From: Mycolicibacterium litorale
Lineage (GTDB): Bacteria; Actinomycetota; Actinomycetes; Mycobacteriales; Mycobacteriaceae
DNA length: 64,000 nt
Assembly (NCBI RefSeq): GCF_014218295.1
Contig: NZ_AP023287.1
Span: 1,054,001 to 1,118,000, forward strand
Direction: 5' to 3'
The position numbers and the translations under genes are program-made. The notes beneath the pieces are model-generated. The model saw nothing but the letters and a program-made list of their open reading frames with translations. It was not told the origin of the DNA and made no database searches. Positions within the stretch are counted from its first letter, which is position 1, and the number at the start of each line of letters is the position of its first letter. Positions 42,885-58,986 of this stretch are shown here, piece after piece.

Positions 42885-42888
42885 CCTC

Positions 42889-44181: not shown

Positions 44182-44205
44182 CAGCAGCAATAAGTGTTGC
44201 ATAGT
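44178..44205 (+). promoter_or_regulatory. Predicted promoter of the 14-gene catabolic operon
   Basis: TTGACA (44178-44183, consensus -35) and CATAGT (44200-44205) are 16 bp apart, with operator copy 2 filling the spacer. Transcription would begin about 44212, almost on the ATG at 44213, so leaderless translation from that ATG is possible. Confidence 0.5.
44184..44201 (+). promoter_or_regulatory. Island operator, copy 2 (GCAGCAA-N5-GTTGCA)
   Basis: GCAGCAATAAGTGTTGCA has the same 7-5-6 layout as copies 1 and 3. It abuts the -35 of the ThDP-enzyme operon promoter, and the RpiR regulator gene is the third gene of that operon. Confidence 0.6.
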
Positions 44206-44233
44206 GTCTAATATGAAGGAAGAGGAGATGCAG

Positions 44234-46003
44234 ATGCGGATGGTAGACGCACTGGCGGAATGGTTCGAGGCCGCGGGAGTGACCCACTACTACGGGTACT
44301 GCGGTGGCGCCGTCTGGCCACTGATGGACGCTCTGGTGGATCATCCGAACATGCACGGGGTGCAGGCCAAGCACGAGTCACATGCGGTACATCAGGCCGA
44401 CATCCACTATCGGGTGAACGGTGCCATCGCTCCGGTGATCGTCACCAAAGGTCCCGGTCTGCTGAACTGCGTGGGCGGCGTCGCCAGCGCGATGCACGAC
44501 GCCATCCCGATGCTCGTGATCGCCGGTTCCGGACCCACCCACTTCCTGGGCAAGGCCGGTATGCAGGAGCTCTTCTACTCCGGGTATGACGACGCCGTTC
44601 CCGTTTTGCGTCCCATCACCAAGGGTTCCTGGTTGGTGGTGCGCCCCGACACTGCGATCGACACTTTCAACCACGCGATGCGGGTGGCAACCAGCGGCCG
44701 TCCCGGACCAGTGTTCATCCAGATCCCGCTCGACGTACAGCTCGGCCTGATTGAAGGAGAGGTCGAAGCACCCGTGCGCCGCTCGGTACGCCAGCGCACC
44801 CGAGTGGACTCCGCCGACATCGCTGAGGCCGAAGCTCTGCTGAAGGACGCCAAGCGGCCCGTGCTGCTGGCGGGCGGCGGGCTGGTGCGCTCAGAAGGCG
44901 GTGCCGCAGCCCTGAAGGGGTTCGCCGAACAACGCGGAGTTCCCGTCATCACCACGCTCCCCGGGAAGGGCCTGGTCGACGAGGAGCACGAACTGTCCCT
45001 CGGCTGCGTCGGCCGCTCGGGCACCGAATGTGCCGCCCGGGCCACCCGCGAGGCGGACTTGGTGATCGCACTCGGCGCCAGGTTCTCCGACAACCACACG
45101 GTGAACTGGCGAAAAGGCGCCATCTACGACATGGAACAGACCAAGCTGATCCAGGTGAACGTCGACCCGGAGGAGATTGGGCGCAACTACTCCGTAGATC
45201 TCGGGCTCGTCGGCGACAGTGCAGCCTTCCTGGAAGACCTGCTGGTTGCCGGTGATGGCGCTCCCGACGCATACGGCGACTGGGTGTCGACCGTCAAGGA
45301 GTTCAAGCGGGAATGGCGCGAGTCGATCCAGTCGGTGCTGACCGCCCCGACCTCCCCAATCCACCCGGGCAGGATGTGTCACGAGATCGGTGAGCTGCTC
45401 GCCGACCGCGGCCGAGTGTTCTGCGATATCGGTGACGTCATACAGTACGCCGAGCCATACATGACCATCCGACGCCCCGGCGCCTGGCACATCAGCCCCG
45501 GTATGGCGGAAATGGGTTGGGCGGCACAGGGTGCCATCGGCGCATGCTTGGCAGCGCCCGGTGAACCGGCGGTCGCGCTCACCGGAGACGGCGCCTTCAT
45601 GATGGGCCCGCAGGCGGTGGCCACCGCCGTCGAGCAGGGGCTGCCCGTCATCTGGGTGATCCTCAACAACTTGGAACTCGGCATCGAGCGCAAGGGTGCC
45701 AACGGAAAGTTCGGTCGCAGCCACCCGTGGTACTCGTTCACCATCGCGGGCTCCGGCGAACCGTACACGCCGGATTACGCGGCAATGGCGCGCTCATTCG
45801 GCGCCGACGGTGAGCGCATCGACGAAACCGGTCAGTTCCGTCCCGCGCTCGAGAAGGCATTGGTCAGCGGACGGCCGACGGTTCTCGACGTCGCGGTGGA
45901 CACCTCCATCCCCAGCTACTTCACCAAGGGGCTCGACCGCGCCTACCCCGACACCTGGGGTGAGAGCTACCCGTCCTACGGCGGACTGAAGCTGGCGCGA
46001 TGA
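44234..46003 (+). CDS. Thiamine-diphosphate-dependent enzyme (acetolactate synthase-like)
   Basis: The protein has 589 residues from the ATG at 44234, which has AGAGGAG 6 nt upstream; in-frame ATGs at 44213 and 44228 are alternatives. The PYR domain has the catalytic Glu48 in KHESHAVHQADIHYR. The PP domain has the ThDP/Mg motif GDG (451-453) ending in NN (478-479). The three-domain layout is that of acetolactate synthase and benzoylformate decarboxylase. It overlaps an aldehyde dehydrogenase gene, so decarboxylation of a 2-oxo acid to an aldehyde is one attractive reading. The substrate is unknown. Confidence 0.88.
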   Translation: MRMVDALAEWFEAAGVTHYYGYCGGAVWPLMDALVDHPNMHGVQAKHESHAVHQADIHYRVNGAIAPVIVTKGPGLLNCVGGVASAMHDAIPMLVIAGSGPTHFLGKAGMQELFYSGYDDAVPVLRPITKGSWLVVRPDTAIDTFNHAMRVATSGRPGPVFIQIPLDVQLGLIEGEVEAPVRRSVRQRTRVDSADIAEAEALLKDAKRPVLLAGGGLVRSEGGAAALKGFAEQRGVPVITTLPGKGLVDEEHELSLGCVGRSGTECAARATREADLVIALGARFSDNHTVNWRKGAIYDMEQTKLIQVNVDPEEIGRNYSVDLGLVGDSAAFLEDLLVAGDGAPDAYGDWVSTVKEFKREWRESIQSVLTAPTSPIHPGRMCHEIGELLADRGRVFCDIGDVIQYAEPYMTIRRPGAWHISPGMAEMGWAAQGAIGACLAAPGEPAVALTGDGAFMMGPQAVATAVEQGLPVIWVILNNLELGIERKGANGKFGRSHPWYSFTIAGSGEPYTPDYAAMARSFGADGERIDETGQFRPALEKALVSGRPTVLDVAVDTSIPSYFTKGLDRAYPDTWGESYPSYGGLKLAR

Positions 46004-47442
46004 CGGAGCGGGACACCAGCGCCGTCCCGCTACTCGTGGGCGGGAGGTGGGAACACGACGGCAACTTGCTGACCGCGACCGCAGCCGGGGACGGCCGCGT
46101 GCTGGGACACACCTTCGAGGCGACGCCGGACCAACTCAACCGGGCCACCGACGCCGCGGTGCGCGCCTTCGGAATCACCCGGAAGCTCGCGTCGTTCGAG
46201 CGCGGTGAGATGCTGCGCCGCGCAGCGGATCTGATCATGGCCGAGGTGGACTCTGTCGGTGCCTCGCTGGCCGCTGAAATCGGCAAGCCCATCACCGACG
46301 CTCGCCTGGAGGTGCGGCGCACCGCCGCCGCGTTCCGCATGGCGGGCGAGGAGTCCGAGCGGATCGGCGGCGAGGTCATGCCGTTGGATCTACTGCCGAC
46401 GTCCCGCGGTCGGTGGGGGATCACCCGGCAGATGCCGATCGGCCCGATCGCCGCAATCTCGCCGTTCAACGTTCCGCTGAGCCTGTCGGCGCACAAGGTG
46501 GCTCCTGCGCTGGCTGCCGGGTGCAGTGTTGTCTTGAAACCGGATTCCCGTGCGGCACTGACGATGTTGCGGCTGGCAGAGCTGCTGGTCGAGGCCGGCG
46601 TACCCGAGGGCGCGCTGAGCGTGTTGCCGATGAGCACCGATGTCGGCGACCTCATGGTGACCGACGACCGGTTCCAGATGGTGACATTCACCGGATCGGT
46701 GCGGGCCGGGTGGGATATCAGGGCTCGGGCGGGTACCAAGAAGGTCACCCTCGAATTGGGTGGCACCGCCCCGGTGATCGTCGACGAGACCGCCGACCCG
46801 GCGCACGCCGCTGCTCGCACGGTGGCCGGCGCCTTCAAGTTCGCCGGGCAGCTGTGCATCAGCGTGCAACGTGCCATCGTGCACCGCAGCGTGTACGACG
46901 AGTACCTCGACGCACTGGTCAAAGGCGCAGCCACCCTCAGGGTCGGCGACCCGCTGGACGACGCCACCCAGGTCGGACCGATGATCTCCGGGCCTGCGGC
47001 GCAACGCATCCGGGAGTGGATCGACGAGGCGGTGGCAGGTGGTGCGCGAGTGCTCACCGGCGAACCCGGTGACGGCCCATATGTCGCGCCGCACGTACTC
47101 GACCGCGTCCCGCCGGAATCACAACTCGGCTGCCAGGAGGCGTTTGGCCCGGTGGTCACCGTGACACCGTTCGACGACATCGACGAGGCGTTCGCCATGG
47201 CCGATGCCACCCCGTACGGGCTGCAGGCCGGGTACTTCACCCGGGACCTGAACAGGTCGTGGCGGGCTTTCGACGACCTGGAGTTCGGTGCCGTCATCAT
47301 CAACGACGTGCCGGCCTTCCGGGTCGACAACATGCCGTTCGGCGGCGTGAAGAGTTCGGGGCTCGGCCGGGAGGGGATCCGGTGGGCGATCGCCGACATG
47401 ACGGAGCCACGCCTGCTCGTGGTCGCTCCCGAAGCCGGATAG
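46000..47442 (+). CDS. NAD(P)-dependent aldehyde dehydrogenase
   Basis: The protein has 480 residues. Catalytic Glu252 lies in VTLELGGTAPVIV and Cys286 in FAGQLCISVQR; Asn157 is in SPFNVPL. All three are in the expected order. ATG overlaps the stop of the ThDP enzyme (ATGA). The gene probably oxidises an aldehyde made by that enzyme or by the thiolase-like/DUF35 pair further down the operon. Confidence 0.92.
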   Translation: MTERDTSAVPLLVGGRWEHDGNLLTATAAGDGRVLGHTFEATPDQLNRATDAAVRAFGITRKLASFERGEMLRRAADLIMAEVDSVGASLAAEIGKPITDARLEVRRTAAAFRMAGEESERIGGEVMPLDLLPTSRGRWGITRQMPIGPIAAISPFNVPLSLSAHKVAPALAAGCSVVLKPDSRAALTMLRLAELLVEAGVPEGALSVLPMSTDVGDLMVTDDRFQMVTFTGSVRAGWDIRARAGTKKVTLELGGTAPVIVDETADPAHAAARTVAGAFKFAGQLCISVQRAIVHRSVYDEYLDALVKGAATLRVGDPLDDATQVGPMISGPAAQRIREWIDEAVAGGARVLTGEPGDGPYVAPHVLDRVPPESQLGCQEAFGPVVTVTPFDDIDEAFAMADATPYGLQAGYFTRDLNRSWRAFDDLEFGAVIINDVPAFRVDNMPFGGVKSSGLGREGIRWAIADMTEPRLLVVAPEAG

Positions 47443-47459
47443 ACAGGGGAGGAACTGCA

Positions 47460-48344
47460 ATGTCCGCAGCACCGTTGGACGACGTCACCGAAACCGTGCG
47501 GGGCAAGTACGACAAACTGACGAACTCTCAGAAGAGAATCGCCGAGACCATCATCGAGGATCCGGAGTTCGTCGCGTTCGCGACCGTCGACAAGCTGGCC
47601 ACCCGGCTCGACGTCGCCGCCTCGACGGTCGTCAGATTCGCGTACAAGCTAGGGTTGGACGGCTACCAGGATCTGCAGGAGCGCATCCGGCAGCAGATCC
47701 GCAACCAGTACCGCGCTGTCGGCGACGCCGAAGGCGCCACCACTCCGACCAGTCACCTTGCGGGGACTTCGTTCCAGGACTCATTGGACCGGGATCTCGC
47801 GCACCTACAGCGCACCGCACGGTCGCTGCACAGAGATGTGCTCGCGCAGGCGGTCACCGCCCTGGCCGATGCCGAGCATGTCTACATCACCGGCGACCTC
47901 ACGTCCTACTGCCTTGCCCATTTCACCGCGATCGCGGTGGGACGCACGCGCGAACGGGTTCGGCTGGTCCAAGCCGACGCTGAAGGTGCGACAGCACTGC
48001 TCGAGATGGGACCCGACGATGTGCTGCTGGCCTACACGTTCCCGCCGTACTCCCGCAACGTACTTCGCGTCGTCGAATCTGCGGTGCGCCGCCGAACCCT
48101 GACCATCGGAGTGACCGATGCGGCGATTTCCCCGGTGGGGCAGCGGGTTTCGATTGTTCTGTCGGCGGTGGCATCCGGCATCGGTCCGCAGAACACGCTG
48201 GTCTCCGGTATGGCGGTGGCCAATGCGCTGGTGAACGGGCTGATCCAGCGCGACGAGGCAAAGTCGATCGAACGCTACAAGGCAGTCGGGGCCCTGGCCG
48301 CGGATTGGGACTTGTTCGTACTGGGGCCCGACAATGGCAGCTGA
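47460..48344 (+). CDS. RpiR/MurR-family transcriptional regulator
   Basis: The protein has 294 residues from the ATG at 47460, preceded by GGGGAGGA. The N-terminal HTH_6 domain (about residues 10-80) contains TNSQKRIAETII and VAASTVVRFAYKLGLDGYQD. A SIS domain covers roughly residues 125-260. RpiR proteins bind inverted repeats and sense phospho-sugars or other small anions through SIS. It is the only clear regulator in the island and the best candidate to bind the three GCAGCAA-N5-GTTGCA sites. It overlaps the next gene by 11 bp. Confidence 0.9.
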   Translation: MSAAPLDDVTETVRGKYDKLTNSQKRIAETIIEDPEFVAFATVDKLATRLDVAASTVVRFAYKLGLDGYQDLQERIRQQIRNQYRAVGDAEGATTPTSHLAGTSFQDSLDRDLAHLQRTARSLHRDVLAQAVTALADAEHVYITGDLTSYCLAHFTAIAVGRTRERVRLVQADAEGATALLEMGPDDVLLAYTFPPYSRNVLRVVESAVRRRTLTIGVTDAAISPVGQRVSIVLSAVASGIGPQNTLVSGMAVANALVNGLIQRDEAKSIERYKAVGALAADWDLFVLGPDNGS

Positions 48345-49584
48345 CTCTCAATTCATCGAACCGACCGCCGGACCACTGGACGGCGTCCGAGTCCTCGACC
48401 TCGCGGACCCGCTGGGCGCCTACGGCGGTCGGCTGTTGGCCGACCTGGGCGCCGAGGTCATCCGGATCGATCCCGTCAACGGGCCCTGCAGCGTCGACTG
48501 CGCACCCTTCTGGCTGGATGCGGACCGCCCGCGCGTGAGTCTCTTCGAGCGGTTCGTCAATGCGGGCAAGAAATCGGTCACTCTGGAGCTGCGTGCCCCG
48601 GAGGCCGAGCGCATCGTCTCCGAGCTGCTGGCCAGCGCCGACATCGTGCTGGAGAGTCCGGGCCCCGTGCTGGCCGCCGCGGGCTGGCCGGAGGATCGCG
48701 TCGCAGCGCTGAACCCACGTCTCATTCGCGTCCAGGTGTCACCATATGGCGCGTCCGAAGTCGAATCCAACGTGGTCTCGGATGATCTGGTGTTACTCGG
48801 TGCCGGCGGACTGCTGTCGATGGGTGGCTACCCCGACATCGGCCCGGTGGCCGTCTACGGTCAGCAGACCACCTACATGGCTTCTATCTTCGGCGCGGTG
48901 GCGGCGATTGCCGGGCTAATCGGGCGCCACCGCGGGGCTGAGCCGGAGACCGCGGATGTGTCGGCGCAGGAATGTGTGGCGCAGGCGCTGGAGGAGAGCG
49001 TGATGCGCTATGCGATGACAGGTGAGATCCGGTCATCCCAAGGAGAGGTCGCCAAGGAAGCCGGCACCGGCAGCTATCGCTGCGCCGACGGGTACGTCAG
49101 CATGGTCGCGGGTCGACTCGGCACGGCGGCCGCGTGGGATTCCCTGGTCCGCTGGCTAGCCGAAAGTGATTCGGCGGCAACCGTATTGACGAGCGAGCAG
49201 TGGTCACGCTTCGAGTTCCGGCAGCGGCCGGAATCCATCGAGGAGTTCCGCGAGACCTTCGAACGCTTCGCCGCGACCCGCACTCGCCAGGAGTTGTACC
49301 GGGAAGCTCAGGAGCGTGGCATCGCCCTGTCCCCGGTCAACGACCTCAACGCTGTGATGGAGGACGCGCAGTTGCTGAACCGCAGTTTCTTCGTCGAGCT
49401 CGATGATCCCGAACTCGCCAGGCCGATGACGTATCCGGGGTTGCCGTACAGCATGAGCGGGACCCCGCTTCGCAAGCCGCAGGCCGCCCCGCGGCGTGGC
49501 GCCGACAATGCCGACATCTACCTCAAGACCGTCGGCCTCAGCCGCGACGAGCTGGAGAGCCTTGCCGCACGGGGCGTGCTGTGA
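48334..49584 (+). CDS. Family III CoA-transferase subunit lacking the catalytic Asp
   Basis: The protein has 416 residues. Typical CaiB/BaiF segments are VRVLDLADPLGAYGGRLLADL, here read as the N-terminal Rossmann part, and NAGKKSVTLEL. At the position of the catalytic Asp, family members have D-x-x-x-G-M; this protein reads VYGQQTTYM (residues 174-182), so Gln replaces Asp. The next gene encodes a homologue with the Asp intact. This fits a heteromeric transferase with one catalytic subunit, as described for benzylsuccinate CoA-transferase BbsEF. Confidence 0.85.
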   Translation: MAADSQFIEPTAGPLDGVRVLDLADPLGAYGGRLLADLGAEVIRIDPVNGPCSVDCAPFWLDADRPRVSLFERFVNAGKKSVTLELRAPEAERIVSELLASADIVLESPGPVLAAAGWPEDRVAALNPRLIRVQVSPYGASEVESNVVSDDLVLLGAGGLLSMGGYPDIGPVAVYGQQTTYMASIFGAVAAIAGLIGRHRGAEPETADVSAQECVAQALEESVMRYAMTGEIRSSQGEVAKEAGTGSYRCADGYVSMVAGRLGTAAAWDSLVRWLAESDSAATVLTSEQWSRFEFRQRPESIEEFRETFERFAATRTRQELYREAQERGIALSPVNDLNAVMEDAQLLNRSFFVELDDPELARPMTYPGLPYSMSGTPLRKPQAAPRRGADNADIYLKTVGLSRDELESLAARGVL

Positions 49585-50795
49585 CGGCATCGAAGCCGCT
49601 CGCCGGGCTGCGAGTCCTCGATTTCGCCTGGATCGGTGCCGGCGCGCTGGTCACCAAGGCCCTCGGTGAGCTCGGAGCCGAGGTCATCAGGATCGAGTCG
49701 CGGGCGCGGCCAGACAACCTACGGCAGTCACCGCCCTTCCCGCCCGGCGTCAGGAACCTGGACGCCTCCGGGTACTTCGCATCGCGCAACCCCGGCAAGA
49801 AGAGTGTGGCGCTGAACATGAAGCACCCAGGGGCCAGAGCGATCGCGATGACACTGGCCGAGCAGTCCGACGTGTTCGCCAGTAACTTCCGGACCGGAGT
49901 GTTGGAGCGCTGGGGTATGGGCTATGACGATGTGCGAGAGGTGAACTCACGTATCGTGTACCTCACGATGCCGATGCAGGGCCGGGAAGGCCCGCACCGC
50001 AATTACGTCGGTTTCGGCTCGACCATCGCCGCACTCGCGGGGCTGGTACATACGACAGCGGTGCCGGGCCGTGCTCCCATCGGCACCGGCACGCACTATC
50101 CCGACCACGTGCCGAACCCGGGCCATGCGCTGGTCGCGTTGCTGGCGGCGATATACCACCAGCAGCGCACCGGTGAGGGCCAGTACGTCGAGCTGTCCCA
50201 GCTCGAGTCCACCGTCAACGTCGTCGGACACGGGATCCTGCAGAGTTCGATCGGCGGGGATGTGCGGCCGTCCGGCAACCGGCTGCCCGGCTGCGCTCCC
50301 CGGGGTGTGTACCGGTGTGCGTCAGGGGAGTGGCTCGCCATCTCGTGTCGCTCGGATCACCATTGGGACGCCATGGCGAAGGAGTTGGGCCGCCCGGAGT
50401 GGTTGACGGACAGCAAGTTCGCCACCGTGTACGACCGGATCGAGCATGCCGACCAGCTCGACGCCGAGCTCGCCGCCACGCTGGAATCGGTGTCCAGGTC
50501 GGCGGTCGTCGACAAGCTGGTGGCGGCTGGAGTGCCCGCTGGGCCGGTCAACAGTGCCAAGGACATGCTCAATGACCCCCACCTGGTCGAGCGCGAGTTC
50601 TGGCAGCCGGTGCAGCACCGGGTGATCGGTGAGATCCCGATGTCGCATCTGCCGTTCCGCATCGGAAGTGGCCCACGCCCGACCATGACACCGCCGCCGT
50701 TGCTGGGCGAGCACACCAGAGAGGTGGCCACCACCTTACTCGGTATGACCGATGGCCAGTACGAGGAGCTGGCCGCCGACGGGCTGTTCTACTGA
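49581..50795 (+). CDS. Family III CoA-transferase, catalytic subunit
   Basis: The protein has 404 residues. GTG overlaps the previous stop (GTGA). It carries LRVLDFAWIGAGALVTKALG, RNPGKKSVALNM and, at the catalytic position, HYPDHVPNPGHALVALLAA with Asp175 intact. Together with the upstream subunit it probably transfers CoA from succinyl-CoA or a similar donor to the carboxylate that enters the pathway. BbsEF and phthalate SptAB are the described analogues. Confidence 0.88.
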   Translation: MTASKPLAGLRVLDFAWIGAGALVTKALGELGAEVIRIESRARPDNLRQSPPFPPGVRNLDASGYFASRNPGKKSVALNMKHPGARAIAMTLAEQSDVFASNFRTGVLERWGMGYDDVREVNSRIVYLTMPMQGREGPHRNYVGFGSTIAALAGLVHTTAVPGRAPIGTGTHYPDHVPNPGHALVALLAAIYHQQRTGEGQYVELSQLESTVNVVGHGILQSSIGGDVRPSGNRLPGCAPRGVYRCASGEWLAISCRSDHHWDAMAKELGRPEWLTDSKFATVYDRIEHADQLDAELAATLESVSRSAVVDKLVAAGVPAGPVNSAKDMLNDPHLVEREFWQPVQHRVIGEIPMSHLPFRIGSGPRPTMTPPPLLGEHTREVATTLLGMTDGQYEELAADGLFY

Positions 50796-51547
50796 TGGCC
50801 GCCGTCGATTGGGAACGCCGGGGTTCGGCGGGATGGGTTCGGCTGAACCGGCCGGATCGCCGGAACGCCATCGATGTGGCCACACGTCGGGGGTTGGCCG
50901 AGGCTTTCACCCTGCTGGAATCCGACCCCGAGGTCGGGGTCATCGTGCTCACCGGCACCGGGTCGATGTTCTGCGCCGGGGTGGACCTGCACGAGCCGAC
51001 GCCCGAGCGCGGACTGCTCGATCTCGGTGAGCAGGTGAGCGCTCCCATCGAACGATGCCCGCTGCCTGTGGTGGCCGCGATGAACGGACCCGCTGTCGGT
51101 GGTGGATTCGAATTGGCACTGGCTTGCGACATGCGAGTCGCGACGGACACCGCCTGGTTCGCGTTGACCGAGCTGCGCATCGGAAGCCTGCCCGGTAGCG
51201 GCGGCACCCAACGCCTGTTCGAGTCGTTGCCGCCTGCGGTGGCCTGGAAGATGCTGCTGACAGGCAGCCGGATCAGTGCGTCGGAAGCCGAACGGTTCGG
51301 GCTGATCAGCGATGTCTTCGACGAGCAGAGCTTCGAGTCCGACGTCGCAGAGCTGATCTCGAACCTCGCTGGAGCCGCGCCACTTTCGGTGCGAGCGGCG
51401 AAAATGGCGCACGCCGCCGGCAGAGCTGGGAATTCCGGTATGGCGATGGAACGCCTGCTGTGGCGAATGTTGGTCGAAACCGAAGACCGGGCCGAGGGCC
51501 GGGCCGCGTTCCGCGAGAAGCGTGCACCACGCTTCCGCGGTCGCTGA
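50795..51547 (+). CDS. Enoyl-CoA hydratase
   Basis: The protein has 250 residues. Both catalytic Glu residues of classical hydratases are present: Glu106 in GGGFELALACD and Glu126 in ALTELRIGSLPGSGGTQRL. That distinguishes it from the other crotonases in this window. The start codon overlaps the preceding stop (TGATG). In the operon it sits between a CoA-transferase pair and a thiolase-like/DUF35 pair, the position of BbsH in benzylsuccinate beta-oxidation. Confidence 0.92.
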   Translation: MAAVDWERRGSAGWVRLNRPDRRNAIDVATRRGLAEAFTLLESDPEVGVIVLTGTGSMFCAGVDLHEPTPERGLLDLGEQVSAPIERCPLPVVAAMNGPAVGGGFELALACDMRVATDTAWFALTELRIGSLPGSGGTQRLFESLPPAVAWKMLLTGSRISASEAERFGLISDVFDEQSFESDVAELISNLAGAAPLSVRAAKMAHAAGRAGNSGMAMERLLWRMLVETEDRAEGRAAFREKRAPRFRGR

Positions 51548-51578
51548 GTCATTCAGACACAGGAGAGGAGCGGTGCAC

Positions 51579-52727
51579 ATGGGGTGGCGCAAAGCGGCCA
51601 TCACCGGAGTGGGCGTCAGCCGACAGGGCAAGTTTCCTGGGGAGACGCCGAATTCCCTTGCCGCCGAGGCTTTCGTCGCGGCGCTCGAAGACGCTGGGTT
51701 ACGGCGTGAGGACGTCGACGGTCTGCTGACCATGCCGGGGACCAAGTCACCCGAAGGCGCCAAGCACTACCTCGCCCTCGGAGAACTGCTCGGCATCAAT
51801 CCGGTACTGACCGGCAGCCTGTCGATGGGCGGCGCGACCGCCGGAGTCTTGATTCAGCAGGCGGCGCTTGCGATCGAGGCGGGCATGGCGAACACCGTGG
51901 TCTGCATCTTCGGTGACACCGCCAAGACTGGTGGCAGCCGCTTCAACGCCGACGCCGGCACCGACAGCGACTCATGGGGTATCTGGGGCATGTTCGGCAA
52001 TGCCGCCAACAGCGCATTCGGCGCGACCCGGCACATGGCGCTGCACAACACCACCAGCGAGCAGCTGGGCTGGATCGCGGTGACCACACGAAAGCACGCA
52101 TCACTGAATCCAAATGCGATCATGCGGGAACCGATCACCATCGACGACCACCAGAACTCGCGGATGATCGTCGACCCGCTGCATCTGCTGGACTGCTGCA
52201 TCATCTCCGACGGGGCGGTGGCGATCATCGTGACCTCCGCCGAGCGGGCCAAGGACAACGCCAGCACACCGGTCGAGCTGTGGGGTATGGGCCAGGGTCA
52301 CACGCTGGTGAAACTCGGTACCCCTGACTGGTGGTATCTGCCGCACCAGGCCGACTGCATCAGCCGCGCCTACCGTATGGCCGGCGTAGGTCCGGAGAAC
52401 ATCGACGTGGCACAGCTCTACGACAACTTCACGATCTCGGTGTTGTTCTGGTTGGAGCACGCCGGGTTCTGCAAACCGGGTGAGGCCGGTGAGTTCGTCC
52501 AGGGCGGCACCAGGATCAGCCTGGGGGGTGAGCTGCCGATCAACACGGCGGGCGGCAATCTGTCGGAGTCCTACATGCAGGGCTGGCTGCACGTCGTCGA
52601 AGGGGTGCGTCAGATCCGCGGCGAGTGTGGACAGCGCCAGGTCGATAGAGCGCGGCTGGCGCTGGTGACCGGGCGGGGGATGACACTCAACACCGCCAGC
52701 TGCCTGATCCTCGGGGAGGCCTCATGA
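51579..52727 (+). CDS. Thiolase-like (Ltp2-type) protein without nucleophilic Cys
   Basis: The protein has 382 residues; ATG at 51579 has GGAGAGGAG 8 nt upstream. The fold is of the SCP2-thiolase/lipid-transfer type. The loop that normally carries the nucleophilic Cys reads SMGGATAGVLIQQ (about 82-94), with no Cys. Tyr281 (YDNFT) and Tyr332 (SESYMQG) match tyrosines conserved in the steroid aldolase Ltp2, and EPITIDDHQNSR with LLDCC also resembles Ltp2. With the DUF35 partner encoded next, a retro-aldol lyase is more likely than a thiolase. Activity is inferred. Confidence 0.82.
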   Translation: MGWRKAAITGVGVSRQGKFPGETPNSLAAEAFVAALEDAGLRREDVDGLLTMPGTKSPEGAKHYLALGELLGINPVLTGSLSMGGATAGVLIQQAALAIEAGMANTVVCIFGDTAKTGGSRFNADAGTDSDSWGIWGMFGNAANSAFGATRHMALHNTTSEQLGWIAVTTRKHASLNPNAIMREPITIDDHQNSRMIVDPLHLLDCCIISDGAVAIIVTSAERAKDNASTPVELWGMGQGHTLVKLGTPDWWYLPHQADCISRAYRMAGVGPENIDVAQLYDNFTISVLFWLEHAGFCKPGEAGEFVQGGTRISLGGELPINTAGGNLSESYMQGWLHVVEGVRQIRGECGQRQVDRARLALVTGRGMTLNTASCLILGEAS

Positions 52728-53152
52728 GCAGAGCATTCATCAAACCCGTACTGACCGATGTCAACCGGGGCTTCTGGGAGGCCGCGGCCGACGGCGTGCT
52801 GTCGGTGCAGCGCTGCGACGACTGCCTGGAGCTGCGCTACCCGCCGGCGTTGCGATGCCCGGAATGCCTATCGGCCAACTGGTCCTGGCAGCCGTTGTCC
52901 GGCCGCGGAGAAGTGCTGTCCTACATCGTGATCCATCAGAAGTACAACGCCGCCTGGGCGGACCGGGTGCCCTATAACGTGGCCATCATCCAACTGGAGG
53001 AGGGCCCTCGCATGATCAGCAATGTGGTGCCCCTTTCAGGCGGTGATGTCGAAGTCGGCATGCCGGTACAGGTGGTGTTCGAAGACGAAGACGGCGTGGC
53101 GATCCCCAGGTTCGCCCCGACCGCGCCGGACGAGAGCGAAGGAGAATCATGA
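52724..53152 (+). CDS. DUF35 Zn-ribbon/OB-fold protein
   Basis: The protein has 142 residues. Four Cys (31, 34, 45, 48 in CDDC and CPEC) form the rubredoxin-like zinc ribbon. An OB-fold acyl-CoA-binding domain follows (GRGEVLSYIVIHQKY). DUF35 proteins are obligate partners of thiolase-like enzymes, as in Ltp2-ChsH2 and BbsB-BbsA. It overlaps the thiolase-like gene and the UbiD gene by 4 bp each. Confidence 0.9.
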   Translation: MSRAFIKPVLTDVNRGFWEAAADGVLSVQRCDDCLELRYPPALRCPECLSANWSWQPLSGRGEVLSYIVIHQKYNAAWADRVPYNVAIIQLEEGPRMISNVVPLSGGDVEVGMPVQVVFEDEDGVAIPRFAPTAPDESEGES

Positions 53153-54666
53153 CCACCGAACGTGTCGTCGGCGGGAAGAGCGTGCGCGAGAACAGCTTCG
53201 ACGAGCAAGTGGCACCCGAGGTCGTCGCGGACAAGAAGGTGCCCCGCGACACCCGCGAGTGGCTGGCCCGCGCGTCGGCGATGGGCGAGCTCAAGGTGCT
53301 CGAAGGTGTGGACTGCGAGAAGGGCATCGGGCAGATCACCGAGATGCTTCACCACGACGACGACGCCCCGGCTGTCCTGTTCGACGGCATCCCCGGCTAC
53401 CCGAAGGGGTTCCGGATGCTGGTCAACACCCTGTCCCGGCGCAACCGGCTGGCCATGACCATCGGCCTGGACGAGAACATCTCCGCGGCAGGTGTCGTCG
53501 ATGCGTGGGAGCAGTGGCTGACCGAGGTCAAGCCACTTCCGGTGAACACCGTCACCAGCGGCCCGATCACCGAGAACATCGACACCGGCGACGACGTGGA
53601 CCTCCTGAAGTTCCCGACGCCGCTGTGGCACGAGGAAGACGGCGGCCGCTACATCGGCACAGCCGTGGCGATCGTCACCAAGGACCCCGACACCGGCGTC
53701 GTCAACTACGGCACGTACCGGGCAATGGTGCACGACCGCAACCACACCGGTCTTTACATCTCACCCGGCAAACACGGCCGGGCCCACCAGGAAGCATGGA
53801 TGGCGCGCCGGGAGCCGATGCCGTGTGTGATGCTGGTCGGTTTGTCCCCGCTGCACTTCCTCGGTGCCGCGCTCGAGATCCCGGAGGGTGTCAATGAACT
53901 GGAGTGGCTCGGCGGTGTCACCGGCGAGCCTGTCGACTGTATCGAGGGCAAGCTCACCGGTCTGCCGATTCCGGCGGGTGCCGAGATAGCGCTGGAGGGT
54001 TTCGTCCTACCCGACGAGAAGCGGATGGAAGGACCATTCGGCGAATGGACCGGCTACTACGCTTCCAAGGAGCAGGAACAGCCCGTATTCCGAGTGGACG
54101 CGGTGTATCACCGCAACGACCCGATCATGCTGGGGTGTCCGCCGCAGAAGCCGCCGTACGAGGGCCAGAAGTTCCAGCAGTACGGCCGCAGTGCCAACCT
54201 GCGTCGCGAACTGCGCGCCGCCGGCGTCCCCGGAGTCACCGCCGCTTGGGCGCACAGCGTCGGCGGTTGCCGACTGTTCAACGTCGTCGCCATCAAGCAG
54301 CAGTACGCGGGCCATGCCACCCAGGCCGGCTTGGCGGCCATCTCGTGTCGGCAGGGCACCTACCTGGGCCGAGTGGTGGTCGTCGTCGACGAGGACATCG
54401 ACGTCACGGATCTGCACGAGGTGATCTGGGCGGTGTGCACCCGTCATGATCCCGAGCGTGATGTCCAGATCATCAAGCGCACCACCAGCGGAAACCTCGA
54501 TCCCGCAATCGAACCCGGGAAGAAGGGCTACAACAGCAGACTGCTGATCGATGCCACCCGGCCGTGGGAGTGGCGGGACAAGTTCCCGGCCGCCATGGGG
54601 CCCGAGCCCGAGGAGAAGGCGCAGGTTCGCGAGGACTGGGGATGGATCCTGCGGGGAGGTAAGTGA
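53149..54666 (+). CDS. UbiD-family prenylated-FMN-dependent decarboxylase
   Basis: The protein has 505 residues. NYGTYRAM (Arg191) and AGAEIALEG (Glu279, Glu283) match the Arg and Glu residues used by UbiD enzymes with prFMN. EGPFGEWTGYY is the family's most conserved segment. UbiD enzymes decarboxylate or carboxylate unsaturated and aromatic acids, and phthaloyl-CoA decarboxylase is one branch. A UbiX gene in the same operon would supply the cofactor. It starts with an ATGA overlap. Confidence 0.93.
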   Translation: MTTERVVGGKSVRENSFDEQVAPEVVADKKVPRDTREWLARASAMGELKVLEGVDCEKGIGQITEMLHHDDDAPAVLFDGIPGYPKGFRMLVNTLSRRNRLAMTIGLDENISAAGVVDAWEQWLTEVKPLPVNTVTSGPITENIDTGDDVDLLKFPTPLWHEEDGGRYIGTAVAIVTKDPDTGVVNYGTYRAMVHDRNHTGLYISPGKHGRAHQEAWMARREPMPCVMLVGLSPLHFLGAALEIPEGVNELEWLGGVTGEPVDCIEGKLTGLPIPAGAEIALEGFVLPDEKRMEGPFGEWTGYYASKEQEQPVFRVDAVYHRNDPIMLGCPPQKPPYEGQKFQQYGRSANLRRELRAAGVPGVTAAWAHSVGGCRLFNVVAIKQQYAGHATQAGLAAISCRQGTYLGRVVVVVDEDIDVTDLHEVIWAVCTRHDPERDVQIIKRTTSGNLDPAIEPGKKGYNSRLLIDATRPWEWRDKFPAAMGPEPEEKAQVREDWGWILRGGK

Positions 54667-55595
54667 TGCGCTTCGGGCTGTCGCTGGCCAACAAGGGAGA
54701 AGGTTGCGGGCCCGAGTCGCTGGACGCCGGCGCCGGTGCCGCAGAACGCCTGGGCTGGGACAGCGTCTGGGTGACCGACCACCTGATGGTGCCCAACGGT
54801 CCCGAAGCCGGTGAGTACGGCGTCATGTTGGAAGCGCTGACCGCGCTGACGTACGTCGCCGCCCGCCACCGCCGGGTGACGGTCGGCACCAGCGTGATCG
54901 TGCCCGCCATGCGGGACGCGCCGCTGCTGGCCAAGGAGTTGGCGACGATCGACGTGCTGTCCGGGGGCCGGTTGGTGGTCGGCGTCGGAGTGAGCGACAA
55001 GGGCGACATCATCGAGTACACCAATCTCGGTAAAGCCGAGCGCTTCCCGCGCCGCGGCGCCTACCTCGATGAGGCCGTCGCGCTCTGGCGGCACCTGTGG
55101 TCGGGTAAGATCGAACCGTTCATCGGTGAGTTCCACACGCTGTCCGACTACAGCTTCCTGCCGCTGCCAGTTCAAGGCGCCGGCATTCCCATCTGGTGTG
55201 GTGGTCGCAGCGAGCGGGCGCTGCGCCGCACCGCCGAGCTGGCCGACGGCTACCACGCCGCGCAGACCGGACCGGCTGACCTCGCCGGGCGAGTGCCGCG
55301 TCTAGCGGAACTCACTGCGCAGCAAGGGCGCCCGATGCCCACCCTGTCCGTGCGGGCACGCGTGGAGTTCGGTCCGTCGACCCGAAGTGTCTACACGCTG
55401 CACGGATCCGAAGACGCCATGGTCGACGAGCTGCTCGAGTTCGCCCGCGCGGGCGCCGACGAGATTCTGCTGGTGTTCGACGCGGAGCGACCGCACGATA
55501 TAGAGCGGGCCGTGAACCGGTTTCACGAGAACGTCATCGAGCCGTTCCGGGCTCGAAGCGGCGATTTCGAACCTGCGGAAGCAGGCCGCCCTTGA
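54666..55595 (+). CDS. LLM-class flavin/F420-dependent oxidoreductase
   Basis: The protein has 309 residues. The ATG at 54666 is chosen because GGGGAGG lies 6 nt upstream. The bacterial-luciferase-like TIM barrel is shown by LGWDSVWVTDHLMVP, GTSVIVPAMRD and DVLSGGRLVVGVGVSDKGD. Mycobacterial members often use F420 instead of FMN. A stand-alone fbiA, which makes an F420 precursor, lies 6 kb downstream in the same island. It could be a monooxygenase, dehydrogenase or reductase on the pathway. Confidence 0.88.
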   Translation: MRFGLSLANKGEGCGPESLDAGAGAAERLGWDSVWVTDHLMVPNGPEAGEYGVMLEALTALTYVAARHRRVTVGTSVIVPAMRDAPLLAKELATIDVLSGGRLVVGVGVSDKGDIIEYTNLGKAERFPRRGAYLDEAVALWRHLWSGKIEPFIGEFHTLSDYSFLPLPVQGAGIPIWCGGRSERALRRTAELADGYHAAQTGPADLAGRVPRLAELTAQQGRPMPTLSVRARVEFGPSTRSVYTLHGSEDAMVDELLEFARAGADEILLVFDAERPHDIERAVNRFHENVIEPFRARSGDFEPAEAGRP

Positions 55596-56977
55596 CGCAC
55601 AGCGTGGAAAGTGAGCTGAGCCGGTTCGTCGCGGAACTGGAGTGGGACGACGTGCCCGCGCCCGTGCAAAAGCGGGTTCTCGACATCTGGGCCGACACCC
55701 TCGCCAATGCGTTGGCGGGCCGGCGGGCCGCCAACACTGCGGTGGTCCAACAGCTGGCCGACCGGCTGTGCGGTCCCGGTGAGAGCACCGTGATCGGCGG
55801 TGCGACGGCGTCACTGACCGCAGCGGCTCTGATCAACGGGCATCAGATCACCGCATTCACCATGTGCGACGTCTACCGGCCCGCGTTGTGCCATATCACC
55901 CCCGAGGTGGTGCCTGCGGCGCTGGCGGTCGCCGAAGGCGGCGACGTCGGCGGGCGCGAACTTCTCACCGGGCTCGCGGTGGGACTGGAGGTCACCGCGC
56001 GCCTCGGTCTCGGCATCGACTATCCGAGCTTCCGCGGAAAAGGTTGGCACACACCGGGGATCATCGGAACCGTCGGGGCGGCCTGCGCGGCGGCCCGCGT
56101 CATCGGGCTGAACGACCGCGGTGTGAGGGCGGCCATGGGGCTGGGGGTGAGCCAGGCATCGGGCACCTTCGCCGCGCTCGGCACACCGGCGGTCAAGTTC
56201 CATCAGGGCAGGGGTGCGGTGTCCGGTCTATGGGCGGCCATGTTCACCGCCGACGGACTGGGCGGCACCGAGCGCGGCCTTACCCACTCCGACGGCGGGC
56301 TGTTCACCACCTACGCCGACGGTGGCCGTCCCGAGCTGGTGACCGAGGGCCTGGGCCGAATCTGGGAGCTCGAGCAGATCTCGCTGCGGCGCTGGCCGGC
56401 CGCCAGTTCACTGCAGTCGTTGGTCGCGGCGCTACTCGAACTCGGTGACGATCTCGATCCGCTCGAGGCCATCGCATCGGTCGAGATCGCGCTGCCGCCC
56501 ACACCGTTCGAGATGTGCGCGCACGTGGGCTGGGACGACGAACTCACGGCCATGCAGTCGACGCGGTACGTCACCGCTGTCGTGCTGACCGACCGCCGGT
56601 GCTGGATCGACAGTTTCGGCGCCGTCCGGCGTGCGGACCCGACGCTGGTGGACTTCGCCGCCCACCAGGTGACCGTCGTCCGCGACGACACTCTGCCACC
56701 CACCGGCGTCGAGGTCCGGATCGTCGCCGGCGGACGGGTGTCGGCGCTGCGCCGCGACCGTGCGCCCGGAGAGCCGCGAGAGCCCCTGACACGTTCACAA
56801 ATCGACGGAAAGGTCGAACAGGCCAGCGCCGGCACGCCGATCGCCGCGGCGGGCCGTCTCGACGACGTGACCACCCGGGTGGGCGATCGGAGGGTGGTCG
56901 AAGTATGCGTCGACCTGCGAACGACGGCAGCGGCGAACCGCGGAGGAAACGATCGTGAGTACGCAGCCAGCCGCTGA
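55592..56977 (+). CDS. MmgE/PrpD-family protein
   Basis: The protein has 461 residues starting from TTG, overlapping the previous stop (TTGA). PrpD-type features include an N-terminal helical domain with VQKRVLDIWADTLANALAGR and the central GHQITAFTMCDVYRPALCH, FHQGRGAVSGLWAAMFTADG segments. The family includes 2-methylcitrate dehydratase, cis-aconitate decarboxylase and iminodisuccinate epimerase-like enzymes. A role in hydration, dehydration or decarboxylation of a polycarboxylic intermediate is plausible. Confidence 0.88.
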   Translation: MTHSVESELSRFVAELEWDDVPAPVQKRVLDIWADTLANALAGRRAANTAVVQQLADRLCGPGESTVIGGATASLTAAALINGHQITAFTMCDVYRPALCHITPEVVPAALAVAEGGDVGGRELLTGLAVGLEVTARLGLGIDYPSFRGKGWHTPGIIGTVGAACAAARVIGLNDRGVRAAMGLGVSQASGTFAALGTPAVKFHQGRGAVSGLWAAMFTADGLGGTERGLTHSDGGLFTTYADGGRPELVTEGLGRIWELEQISLRRWPAASSLQSLVAALLELGDDLDPLEAIASVEIALPPTPFEMCAHVGWDDELTAMQSTRYVTAVVLTDRRCWIDSFGAVRRADPTLVDFAAHQVTVVRDDTLPPTGVEVRIVAGGRVSALRRDRAPGEPREPLTRSQIDGKVEQASAGTPIAAAGRLDDVTTRVGDRRVVEVCVDLRTTAAANRGGNDREYAASR

Positions 56978-57431
56978 GGTCCGGTTGCCCCCACCGGTGG
57001 CCGCACTCGCCGACGGCAGCGATCTGGCGAACAAAGTGGGACAGACGATCTCGCTGATCACCATCGACGAGAACGGCTGGCCCCGGTTGGCATTGTTGAG
57101 CATCGGTGAGGTGTACAGCGCGTCGGGCACCGACATCAGACTGGCGCTGCACGCAGGCTCGGGTACCACCGCGGCCCTCACCGCGTCGGGCCGTGCACTA
57201 CTCAACACCGTTCTCGAGGCCACCAACTATCGCATCCGCGTTCAGGTCGAACGTGTCGACCGCGGGCCCGGTCCGCTGGCGTTCTTCACCGGTACCGTCA
57301 TCGCCGTGGACGAGGATCGGGTGCCGTACGCCGAGCTCACCTCAGGTATCACCTATTCCCTCAGGAACGAGGAGGCCGTCTTGGTGCGGTGGCAGCGGCA
57401 ACTGGCTCAGATGCAGGAGCTCGGCACATGA
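56955..57431 (+). CDS. PNPOx-like split-barrel flavin/F420-binding protein
   Basis: The protein has 158 residues. The split-barrel fold of the pyridoxamine-5'-phosphate-oxidase superfamily is suggested by VGQTISLITIDENGWPRLALLS and VYSASGTDIRLALHAGS, with a strand-rich C-terminal half. Members bind FMN, F420 or heme. Function here is unknown. It overlaps the PrpD gene by 23 bp and the ubiX gene by 4 bp, so it belongs to the operon. Confidence 0.75.
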   Translation: MSTQPAAEVRLPPPVAALADGSDLANKVGQTISLITIDENGWPRLALLSIGEVYSASGTDIRLALHAGSGTTAALTASGRALLNTVLEATNYRIRVQVERVDRGPGPLAFFTGTVIAVDEDRVPYAELTSGITYSLRNEEAVLVRWQRQLAQMQELGT

Positions 57432-58009
57432 CGCGGCGGATCATCGTCGGGATCACCGGCGCCAGCGGGTCCATCCTCGGCATCCGAGCGCTGGAGCGCT
57501 TACGCGAGTTCGAGGTCGAAACGCATCTGATCATCAGCGCCTGGGGCGCCCGCACCCTGGAACACGAATCCGGCTGGACCGTCGAGGAAGTGCGCCGGCT
57601 GGCCGATGTGGTTCACAAGCCGGGCGATCTGGGGGCCACCGTCTCCAGCGGATCTTTCCGCACCGACGGTATGCTGATCGCGCCCTGCAGCATGAAGACG
57701 GTCGCCGCGATCGCCCACGGGTACACCGAGGATCTGGTGGCCCGCGCCGCCGACGTGATCCTCAAAGAGCGGCGCCGGCTGGTTCTGATGGCCCGGGAGG
57801 CTCCACTCAGCGAAGTCCATCTGGAGAACCTGCTCAAGCTCGCACGCATGGGCGTCTCCATCGTGCCGCCGATGCCCGCCTTCTACAACCGGCCCAAGAC
57901 ACTGGAGGATGTGGTGGACCACATCGTGGTTCGCGCACTGGACCAGTTCGACCTGGTGGCCGAGGACGCCCCCCGCTGGGACGGCCACGTGACCAAACAG
58001 CGTCCGTGA
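57428..58009 (+). CDS. ubiX: UbiX-family flavin prenyltransferase
   Basis: The protein has 193 residues from the ATG at 57428. GITGASGSILGIRALE is the FMN-binding start. IAPCSMKTVAAIAHGY, RAADVILKERRRLVLMAREAPLSE and MPAFYNRPKTLEDVVDHIV are the characteristic UbiX blocks. UbiX prenylates FMN to prFMN, the cofactor required by the UbiD-type decarboxylase encoded five genes upstream. That is strong support for a working UbiD reaction in this operon. Confidence 0.94.
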   Translation: MTRRIIVGITGASGSILGIRALERLREFEVETHLIISAWGARTLEHESGWTVEEVRRLADVVHKPGDLGATVSSGSFRTDGMLIAPCSMKTVAAIAHGYTEDLVARAADVILKERRRLVLMAREAPLSEVHLENLLKLARMGVSIVPPMPAFYNRPKTLEDVVDHIVVRALDQFDLVAEDAPRWDGHVTKQRP

Positions 58010-58986
58010 GCGCGCACCCGGAACCGGCCCGTTACCCGGAGAAGCGGTTGCGCGCAGCGGCCGTTCGGTCCCGCCTGATGTTGCAGGTGGCATCGGTGCT
58101 GGTGGCCGACGAGGAGTGGCGCGATCAGCAGGTGCGGATCGAGATGCGTCCACCGGGCGGCCAGCAGTGGCGTACCGCGCTGTTCGCCAGCGACGGCATC
58201 GAGGCGGTCGCAGCCGTGCTGGGTGGTGACAGCCAGTTCGCGATCCTCAACCCCGCGACCGCGATTCGCTCTGCGCTGCTGCGGCTTCCGGGTGCCCGCG
58301 GTAACGAACTCGCTGCGATCGCGACGGTACCGTCTTACGATCAGCTCGGCCTGTCGGTCCGCGCCGAGTTCGGGCTGCATACGTTGGCGGAATTGGCCGC
58401 GGTGAAGCCCCGTCTACGGGTGTCGTTGCGGGGGAACCGTCCCACCCACAGCGTGCACCTGGTGCTCGACGACGTATTGGCCTCCGCCGGCATCTCGCTC
58501 GACGACATCCGGTCCTGGGGCGGCGAGGTGCGATACGACGATGGACTGCCGCACAAGGCTCCCCGTACCGGCCTGCTGCGTGACGGCGTCATCGACGCCA
58601 TCTTTGACGAGGGCGTCTACAACTGGGTGGAGTTGGCTAACGACGCGGGGTTGCGGTTCTTGAGCCTGTCCGACGATACGGTGGCCCAGCTGCAGAGCCA
58701 GGGCTACCGGTCCGGCACTCTGCGTAAGGACCGTTATCAGACCCTCGAAACCGATGTCACCACACTCGATTTCAGTGGCTTTCTGGTGTTCACCCGATGT
58801 GATGCCGACGTCGAGATGGTGGGGAAGTTCTGCGAGGCCATGGTCGCGGCACGGGAGAAGACCGGCTGGCAGGGCGGACCGGCGCTACCGCTGGAGCAGA
58901 TGGTGTCCGACACCATCGACGCGCCTCTGCCGATCCCGTTCCATCCGGCAGCCGAAGCGACCTGGCGCCGGCACGGGCTGCTCTGA
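58006..58986 (+). CDS. Cytosolic binding-protein-like (NMT1/TAXI-type) protein
   Basis: The protein has 326 residues from a GTG overlapping the ubiX stop (GTGA). It has the two-lobe solute-binding fold of TAXI/NMT1-like proteins: EAVAAVLGGDSQFAILNPATA near the ligand cleft and HTLAELAAVKPRLRVSLRGN at the hinge. There is no signal peptide or lipobox, so it should stay in the cytosol. Related signal-less proteins act as decarboxylases (Pht5) or sensors. It ends the 14-gene operon. Confidence 0.78.
   Translation: MSAHPEPARYPEKRLRAAAVRSRLMLQVASVLVADEEWRDQQVRIEMRPPGGQQWRTALFASDGIEAVAAVLGGDSQFAILNPATAIRSALLRLPGARGNELAAIATVPSYDQLGLSVRAEFGLHTLAELAAVKPRLRVSLRGNRPTHSVHLVLDDVLASAGISLDDIRSWGGEVRYDDGLPHKAPRTGLLRDGVIDAIFDEGVYNWVELANDAGLRFLSLSDDTVAQLQSQGYRSGTLRKDRYQTLETDVTTLDFSGFLVFTRCDADVEMVGKFCEAMVAAREKTGWQGGPALPLEQMVSDTIDAPLPIPFHPAAEATWRRHGLL

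Follow-up and report, generated by a model that had tools for sequence, protein, structure and literature searches.

A 14-gene operon encoding UbiD, thiolase-fold and thiamine diphosphate-dependent enzymes in a genomic island of Mycolicibacterium litorale

A catabolic-type operon and its gene families

We analyzed a 64,000-nucleotide stretch of the Mycolicibacterium litorale genome (GCF_014218295.1, contig NZ_AP023287.1, positions 1,054,001 to 1,118,000; hereafter the window, whose own numbering is used throughout). Judged from gene order and predicted gene families, the 14 forward-strand genes at 44,234–58,986 are one operon of a catabolic type, and they lie within a 24.3-kb genomic island. 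Families were assigned by Pfam and NCBIfam profile searches, and these matched the families named in an initial annotation made from the sequence letters. As that annotation had proposed, the genes share a strand and almost all overlap: with the start codons chosen here, 11 of the 13 junctions overlap by 1–23 bp, the remaining gaps being 17 bp (between the genes for aldehyde dehydrogenase and the RpiR regulator) and 31 bp (between those for the enoyl-CoA hydratase and the thiolase-like protein). The genes, and a candidate promoter preceding them, are as follows.

44178–44205, + strand: candidate sigma-70-like promoter, TTGACA-16-CATAGT (10/12 consensus), directly before the next gene
44234–46003, +: thiamine diphosphate (ThDP)-dependent enzyme, acetolactate-synthase superfamily (TPP_enzyme N/M/C; start at 44213, 44228 or 44234)
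46000–47442, +: aldehyde dehydrogenase (ALDH; Aldedh, 464 bits)
47460–48344, +: RpiR-SIS transcriptional regulator (HTH_6 and SIS)
48334–49584, +: CoaT1, family III CoA-transferase subunit, catalytic Asp missing (Pfam, residue alignment)
49581–50795, +: CoaT2, family III CoA-transferase subunit, catalytic Asp kept (Pfam, residue alignment)
50795–51547, +: enoyl-CoA hydratase (ECH; ECH_1, 194.6 bits)
51579–52727, +: thiolase-fold protein, predicted Ltp2-type retro-aldolase (THL; Gly at the Cys site, two Tyr)
52724–53152, +: DUF35/ChsH2-type Zn-ribbon OB-fold partner
53149–54666, +: UbiD-family decarboxylase, PhdA-like, dependent on prenylated flavin mononucleotide (prFMN) (UbiD N/Rift/C)
54663–55595, +: luciferase-like monooxygenase (LLM)-class oxidoreductase, probably F420-dependent (TIGR03619, 174 bits against a cut-off of 166.9)
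55592–56977, +: MmgE/PrpD-fold enzyme (Pfam)
56955–57431, +: divergent PhdC-like predicted prFMN maturase (phmmer, alignment, Foldseek)
57428–58009, +: UbiX flavin prenyltransferase (Flavoprotein, 154.6 bits)
58006–58986, +: TAXI/NMT1-like binding-fold protein (NMT1_3; TRAP_TAXI under its cut-off)

CoA_transf_3 (twice), ECH_1, Thiolase_C_1, ChsH2-type DUF35, UbiD, Bac_luciferase, MmgE/PrpD, ThDP, Aldedh, RpiR/SIS, Flavoprotein and NMT1_3 all scored above their Pfam cut-offs. Thiolase_N in the thiolase-like protein fell under its cut-off, and the 158-residue product of 56,955–57,431 had no Pfam match. The promoter candidate is near chance level, with 2 sites in the scanned region against 1.6 expected. 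A single imperfect 9-nt inverted repeat at 44154–44192 was considered as an RpiR operator and found unconvincing. The TAXI/NMT1-like protein, whose GTG start overlaps the UbiX stop, has no signal peptide evident by eye and is 26–28% identical to proteins of two UbiD-bearing loci (L064, L103).

The UbiD decarboxylase and its predicted flavin maturation partners

The window UbiD is the sole UbiD in its genome, and the UbiX is likewise the sole match to its family in the genome at E ≤ 0.001. The best match of the UbiD in the Protein Data Bank (PDB) is 7pda, at 342 bits versus 54 bits to the solved phthaloyl-CoA decarboxylase. Its GTYR and EGPFGE segments align with those of 7pda, at positions that we take to be the UbiD motif sites, and the Glu-Arg-Glu network is kept. 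The 7pda sequence is in turn 98–99% identical over 192 residues to the UbiD of four genus mates with adjoining PhdC-type genes, from which we infer that 7pda is PhdA. Genus members also carry UbiD and PhdC proteins that agree almost or completely with fragments of 7pda and of the PhdC structure 9nk0.

On the strength of sequence and a structural model, the product of 56,955–57,431 is probably a divergent PhdC-like protein. Its phmmer match to 9nk0 is weak (E 0.0021). In an alignment with 12 PhdC-type proteins, to which it is 20–29% identical, the Glu140 and Trp146 columns are invariant; the Glu and Trp of the ExW motif are kept, with extra residues between them. The top nine PDB matches of its model in Foldseek are all PhdC, a partly circular result as the model (predicted local distance difference test score 67) was built from an alignment that held PhdC rows. 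According to PMC13040415, PhdC matures prFMN oxidatively and carries an ExW motif.

Accompanied by UbiX and a putative split-barrel protein of PhdC type, the window UbiD recalls PhdABC, the phenazine-1-carboxylate decarboxylase system of Mycolicibacterium fortuitum. The window differs in that its UbiD reaches 39–41% identity with the PhdA-type proteins found in genus mates, in the low identity and extra ExW-motif residues of its PhdC-like protein, and in that its genes are embedded in a larger operon. PhdC-like proteins also occur in six actinobacterial loci (L018, L019, L020, L022, L074, L076), alongside a CoA-transferase pair and two UbiD proteins, one 23–25% and the other 47–49% identical to that of the window, which suggests that PhdC-type maturation may extend beyond the phenazine system.

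A second point of comparison is the SptAB/phthaloyl-CoA decarboxylase cluster on plasmid 2 of Aromatoleum aromaticum EbN1. It shares with the window paired family III CoA-transferases, a UbiX (61% identical) and a TAXI-like protein (28%). It differs in that its phthalate-locus UbiD, which scores 1,175 bits to 8pmk and is hence a phthaloyl-CoA decarboxylase, belongs to another UbiD branch, 24% identical to the window UbiD. A further UbiD in the same cluster is 48.6% identical to ours. This protein (L103, 14908–16422), annotated merely as a UbiD family decarboxylase, has its own ABC importer and is flanked on either side by a copy of the UbiX/phthaloyl-CoA-decarboxylase set.

The CoA module resembles an aldolase system

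Heteromeric CoA-transferases with one Asp-bearing subunit are the BbsEF design. The initial annotation had likened the window pair to BbsE/F and to the type used for phthalate, and the residues agree with a BbsEF/SptAB design: CoaT2 has the catalytic Asp in YPDH and CoaT1 has QQTTYM instead, as does the A. aromaticum EbN1 pair, to which the window subunits are 31% and 35% identical. Both crotonase Glu residues of the ECH can be read from its sequence, in GGFEL and ALTE, presumably the crotonase catalytic motif.

The thiolase-like protein has Gly at the nucleophilic Cys site, where BbsB (7pxp) has Cys, along with HDAF and GHP. At both BbsB His sites it has Tyr, aligned with Tyr294 and Tyr344 of TcLtp2, the base and the acid, respectively, according to PMC12329534. 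The oxyanion-hole motif YDHF of Ltp2 is replaced by YDNF, so that the His is not kept; the same paper reports that replacing this His in TcLtp2 cost only 14-fold. The NCBIfam BbsB model scored 117 bits against a cut-off of 750 and the BbsA model 30 against 250. The DUF35 protein encoded next to the thiolase-like protein carries a C4 zinc ribbon, Cys-x2-Cys-x10-Cys-x2-Cys. Taken together, the residues make the thiolase-fold protein look like a DUF35-partnered, Ltp2-type retro-aldolase, not BbsB.

Among known systems, the pair can be set beside Ltp2 with the ChsH2 DUF35 domain (6ok1) and beside Sal-Shy with Sad, which act in the degradation of steroid side chains. In common with them it has a Cys-less thiolase fold, the Tyr pair as in Ltp2 and a DUF35 C4 zinc-ribbon partner. 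The Ltp2-related Sal yields an aldehyde that the aldehyde dehydrogenase Sad oxidizes (PMC12329534), and the ALDH encoded in the window operon offers a counterpart to Sad. In contrast to these systems, the window has a crotonase instead of a MaoC/ChsH-type hydratase, the motif is YDNF, and no gene of the operon was assigned to steroid degradation. The BbsABEFGH system of benzylsuccinate beta-oxidation shares the CoA-transferase heteromer, the crotonase and the thiolase fold with DUF35. The island, however, lacks BbsG, the operon encodes no BbsCD, and the thiolase fold has aldolase-type residues in place of thiolase-type ones. The initial annotation had reported a Cys-less thiolase fold with DUF35, a hydratase, and UbiD with UbiX in a catabolic-type operon, and all of these are present.

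ThDP enzyme, LLM oxidoreductase and PrpD-fold enzyme

The ThDP enzyme stayed below the cut-off of each of the 25 highest-scoring of 52 NCBIfam families, so an identity as acetolactate synthase or glyoxylate carboligase is unsupported; its best PDB match is BbmA. Cyclohexane-1,2-dione hydrolase (4d5g/2pgn) and IolD, ring-opening members of the same superfamily, act by C–C cleavage followed by aldehyde oxidation. The window enzyme is distant from the hydrolase (161 bits), the relationship being known here by superfamily membership. Literature searches on BbmA and cyclohexanedione hydrolase turned up nothing useful.

The PDB matches of the PrpD-fold enzyme are IDS-epimerase and cis-aconitate decarboxylases. 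F420 enzymes are the best PDB matches of the LLM oxidoreductase. This protein passes TIGR03619 and is probably F420-dependent; the island has a second FbiA gene, but the Chloroflexi genome described below has an LLM relative and no CofD match.

This type of ThDP enzyme is found at other loci as well. The near-identical Chloroflexi loci L133–L137 combine a 36–37% ThDP relative with genes for a short-chain dehydrogenase (SDR), an FAD_binding_2 oxidoreductase and an ALDH 37–41% identical to that of the window. Locus L127 (G1048) brings together two PrpD-fold genes (44–46%), a 37% ThDP relative, an aldehyde oxidoreductase (AOR), an HpcH/HpaI aldolase, an RraA-like protein and an SDR.

The operon core recurs in a Chloroflexi genome

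A partial mirror of the operon was found in a metagenome-assembled genome (MAG) of a groundwater bacterium from another phylum, the Chloroflexi. Two contigs of this MAG (L112, L113) both end within the ThDP gene and have an exact 141-bp end in common. Their joint order is CoaT, SDR, ECH, DUF35, thiolase fold, ThDP and UbiD, then an NMT1 binding protein, an ABC ATPase, two permeases, RpiR, LLM and PrpD. Identities to the window proteins are 47–48% for ThDP, 68% for UbiD, 46% for RpiR, 48% for LLM and 47% for PrpD, and in a quick UbiD tree (97 rows) the window UbiD is sister to the Chloroflexi UbiD, with a Shimodaira-Hasegawa-like approximate likelihood ratio of 95. Because the same core is clustered in this MAG, the gene grouping is, as far as sequence comparison can tell, beyond chance. 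Synteny limited to a single genome would have spoken against the initial annotation; instead the core recurs in a second phylum, though in no other actinobacterium sampled.

The Chloroflexi thiolase-fold enzyme shows the residues of a thiolase, one Cys and two His, and its gene stands beside one for an SDR. The window operon, in contrast, encodes the aldolase-type enzyme together with an ALDH and lacks an SDR. It looks like the cleavage chemistry was exchanged, aldolase with ALDH for thiolase with SDR, a comparison that rests on two clusters. No relatives of ALDH, UbiX or PhdC were found in the 39 kb of the MAG that were read, and an AOR gene lies divergently, adjoining the Chloroflexi CoaT.

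The island around the operon

The operon lies within an island whose recognition, like that of the PhdC-like protein, is an extension of the initial annotation. Its extent and its other genes are given here.

37540–61817, strand not applicable: genomic island, 24.3 kb, between an echA5-like gene (36775–37539) and a DUF3060 gene (61818–62231)
37570–41716, −: ABC importer comprising ATPase, fused permease and SBP_bac_1/6 binding protein (Pfam)
41871–42884, +: Pht5-family (4,5-dihydroxyphthalate decarboxylase) binding-fold protein (Phosphonate-bd/NMT1 Pfam)
42937–44181, +: major facilitator superfamily (MFS) transporter (Pfam MFS_3)
59889–60689, +: SDR, possibly a pathway member, within the island 0.9 kb downstream of the operon (Pfam)
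60722–61723, −: second FbiA/CofD, F420 biosynthesis (TIGR01819, 387 bits, above cut-off)

The two flanking genes are 24,278 bp apart here, versus 6–1,274 bp in all 14 genus mates read (52 bp or less in 11; 813, 919 and 1,274 bp in the other three). The host genome, a single contig of 5.63 Mb, has two FbiA copies versus one in each of 14 other genus genomes searched (E ≤ 1e-30); both pass TIGR01819, and the island copy is 75% identical to the resident one (G000:C1:1434120-1435112). Mean GC content at third codon positions is 0.829 for 16 genes at 41,871–58,986, versus 0.891 for the other 43 genes called in the window. Flank spacing, FbiA copy number and codon-position GC lead us to regard the island, tentatively and at slightly less than even odds, as a horizontally acquired and largely self-contained catabolic unit whose substrate would be a carboxylic acid, be it aromatic, heteroaromatic or cyclic and unsaturated. 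No direct repeat of 10 bp or more is shared by the island edges (250 bp compared at either end). By Pfam, the island encodes no acyl-CoA dehydrogenase, one being found outside it, upstream of echA-type genes; the operon encodes no hydroxyacyl-CoA dehydrogenase, and the one SDR of the island, listed above, is at most a candidate for this role.

The gap between the echA5-like and DUF3060 genes is widened to 0.8–1.3 kb in three of the 14 genus mates (L167, L171, L173), and may for this reason be an insertion hot spot; the 1,274-bp spacing (L167) holds an iron-type alcohol dehydrogenase gene. The left flank of the window shows, by eye, an rplJL-rpoBC arrangement. The Pht5-family protein has no signal peptide evident by eye. 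Among its 40 best matches listed are plasmid proteins annotated as 4,5-dihydroxyphthalate decarboxylase, at 33–35% over 99%; the majority of the 40 are annotated as ABC substrate-binding proteins instead. In other phyla, Pht5-family genes stand directly before UbiD genes whose products are 46% identical to the window UbiD (L046, L048, L081).

A proposed pathway and its alternatives

The bounds and genes of the island, its catalytic residues and the core conserved in the Chloroflexi MAG come from the sequence; the reaction steps proposed here are our inference from them. In the best reading, to which we assign a probability of about 0.45, the island encodes a mobile route for an acid of aromatic, heteroaromatic or unsaturated cyclic structure. 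The route would combine prFMN-dependent decarboxylation, C–C cleavage by ThDP with oxidation of the aldehyde, and a CoA branch that closes with a retro-aldol reaction. The importers and the MFS transporter would bring the acid into the cell (step 1). UbiX would make prenyl-FMN, the PhdC-like protein would oxidize it, and UbiD would take off a ring carboxyl (step 2). The LLM enzyme, probably F420-linked, and the PrpD-fold enzyme would alter the redox state and hydration of the ring (step 3), after which the ThDP enzyme would break a C–C bond to give an aldehyde for oxidation by the ALDH (step 4). The CoaT1/CoaT2 heteromer would activate the resulting unsaturated (di)acid, ECH would hydrate it, and the Ltp2-type aldolase with DUF35 would cleave the 3-hydroxyacyl-CoA, giving an acyl-CoA together with a carbonyl compound (step 5); in the Chloroflexi version this last split would fall to the SDR and the Cys/His-type thiolase. 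The RpiR protein may sense a pathway intermediate. Of these steps, 2 and 5 have the best footing; the ThDP, LLM and PrpD reactions are read from family membership, and the order of steps 2–5 and the substrate are guesses.

If this is true, prFMN decarboxylation, ThDP C–C cleavage and a retro-aldol CoA branch, enzyme steps that appear not usually to be found together, would be joined in one mobile pathway. Thiolase-fold/DUF35 aldolases could then serve beyond steroid degradation, and thiolysis and retro-aldol cleavage would be seen to substitute naturally for one another within a conserved cluster. The operon also offers a bounded gene set for probing the substrate range of PhdA-like UbiD enzymes. 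A bolder version, which we consider a long shot, is ring opening without a ring-cleaving dioxygenase: prFMN decarboxylation, F420H2- or flavin-dependent dearomatization by LLM, hydration by the PrpD-fold enzyme, hydrolytic C–C cleavage by the ThDP enzyme, and a CoA branch in which aldolase (with ALDH) and thiolase (with SDR) are interchangeable between phyla.

Several observations weigh against the pathway as drawn. The CoA-module proteins are merely 25–35% identical between the window and the Chloroflexi cluster. Neither UbiX nor CofD was found in the Chloroflexi MAG, which may be incomplete; this makes the source of its prFMN hard to explain and speaks against the use of F420 by its LLM. An aldolase relative on a Variovorax plasmid, 64% identical, has Phe at the second catalytic Tyr, and this, with YDNF for YDHF, makes retro-aldol activity of the window protein likely, not certain. 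In support of the pathway, an ALDH or AOR gene lies near this ThDP type in five of eight lineages, a count with no chance baseline (present in the window, L130, L133–L137 taken as one, L112/L113 and L127; absent from L125, L126 and L128; the 5-kb contig L124 left out). A PrpD-fold gene is likewise near it in four of the eight (the window, L113 and L127 at 46–47%, and L130 at 22%). Against the pathway, modules of the island also occur separately. The Variovorax plasmid has a CoA module in the order ECH-CoaT-CoaT-thiolase fold-DUF35, with PrpD and SDR and, some 12 kb downstream, fragments of ALDH along with a remotely related ThDP-type gene (26%); a Sphingobium plasmid has PrpD-ThDP-ALDH-SDR. 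Neither stretch, as read, holds a UbiD, UbiX or LLM relative, and at L006 UbiD and UbiX stand with cupin and FAA-hydrolase genes.

Such separate occurrence keeps alive a mosaic, in which two or three unrelated routes (the CoA module; UbiD/PhdC/UbiX; ThDP/ALDH) share an operon and not a substrate. Every module was met without the others in some stretches read, but nine of the gene types, a related RpiR regulator among them, recur together in the second phylum, and we consider a mosaic quite improbable. A stronger competitor, though still unlikely, would degrade the side chain first: an aryl- or heteroaryl-acrylate would pass through CoaT, ECH and the aldolase to an aryl aldehyde and acetyl-CoA, ALDH would form the aryl acid, UbiD would decarboxylate it, and LLM, PrpD and ThDP would follow. 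Feruloyl-CoA chemistry is one model for such a route. Another is the Sal/Sad bile-acid chemistry, in which the aldehyde product of the aldolase is oxidized by Sad (PMC12329534). The pairing of aldolase with ALDH in the window and of a Cys/His-type thiolase with SDR, and no ALDH relative in 39 kb, in the MAG would fit a beta-carbon that is a secondary alcohol, and it argues that ALDH serves the aldolase; the absence of an acyl-CoA dehydrogenase from the island fits as well. Against this, the swap is seen in two clusters, the Chloroflexi CoaT has a divergently oriented AOR gene as its neighbor, and ALDH or AOR accompanies the ThDP enzyme in other lineages, for which reason we slightly favor ALDH serving the ThDP enzyme. 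The heteromeric CoA-transferase, moreover, resembles pairs whose substrates are dicarboxylates.

Two further routes come from comparisons drawn in the initial annotation, and neither fared well. Bbs-like modified beta-oxidation of an aryl-substituted succinate would use the CoA-transferase pair, ECH, thiolase fold and DUF35, all of which are present. It would end in true thiolysis, which we rejected on the missing Cys, the Tyr pair and the NCBIfam scores; with no acyl-CoA dehydrogenase in the island and no hydroxyacyl-CoA dehydrogenase in the operon, this route is very hard to credit. In a phthalate-type route, the CoA-transferase would make phthaloyl-CoA for the window UbiD to decarboxylate. 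Loci of UbiD relatives do carry an SptAB-like CoA-transferase pair, and the island has a Pht5-family protein. Those loci, however, hold a second UbiD 23–25% identical to that of the window, and the A. aromaticum one is the phthaloyl-CoA decarboxylase, while the window UbiD has no such companion. We rejected phthaloyl-CoA decarboxylation by the window UbiD on its scores to the two structures and its 24% identity to the EbN1 enzyme, which leaves this route scarcely credible. The preferred reading thus remains the mobile pathway with prFMN decarboxylation, ThDP cleavage and a retro-aldol CoA branch.

Related genes in other genomes

Literature searches on this gene combination turned up nothing of apparent relevance, judged by their listings, by which its absence from print is not established. 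Within the genus, a UbiD match at E ≤ 1e-75 was present in 10 of 395 other genomes, all 39–41% identical, none of them at ortholog level. At E ≤ 1e-100 there was none in 395 other genomes of the phylum, and the best UbiD in 99 relatives was 43% identical; these three samples overlap. A scan of UbiD-bearing contigs, in which 80 of the 87 relatives found were kept, had the 68% protein of the Chloroflexi MAG at its top, and the window core was not found in the other actinobacteria sampled. The THL search (246 genomes, E ≤ 1e-105) returned the window alone.

ThDP matches (E ≤ 1e-95) occurred in 10 of 350 genomes around the phylum of the MAG. In the ten Chloroflexi loci from all nine other ThDP-match genomes (L124–L128, L133–L137), a comparison at E ≤ 1e-6 that covered UbiD, UbiX, LLM, the CoA-transferases, the thiolase-like protein and DUF35, but not ECH, found no relative of any of them. 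Among plasmids, PrpD had no relative at E ≤ 1e-60 and LLM none at E ≤ 1e-50, whereas CoaT1 had two, 37% identical, at E ≤ 1e-45. In Defluviicoccus (L043, L042, L047, L079), UbiD and PrpD proteins 46–47% and 45–47% identical to those of the window are encoded at a common locus, and in L043 genes for an HpaB-type hydroxylase, a Rieske oxygenase and an AMP-ligase lie between or beside them.

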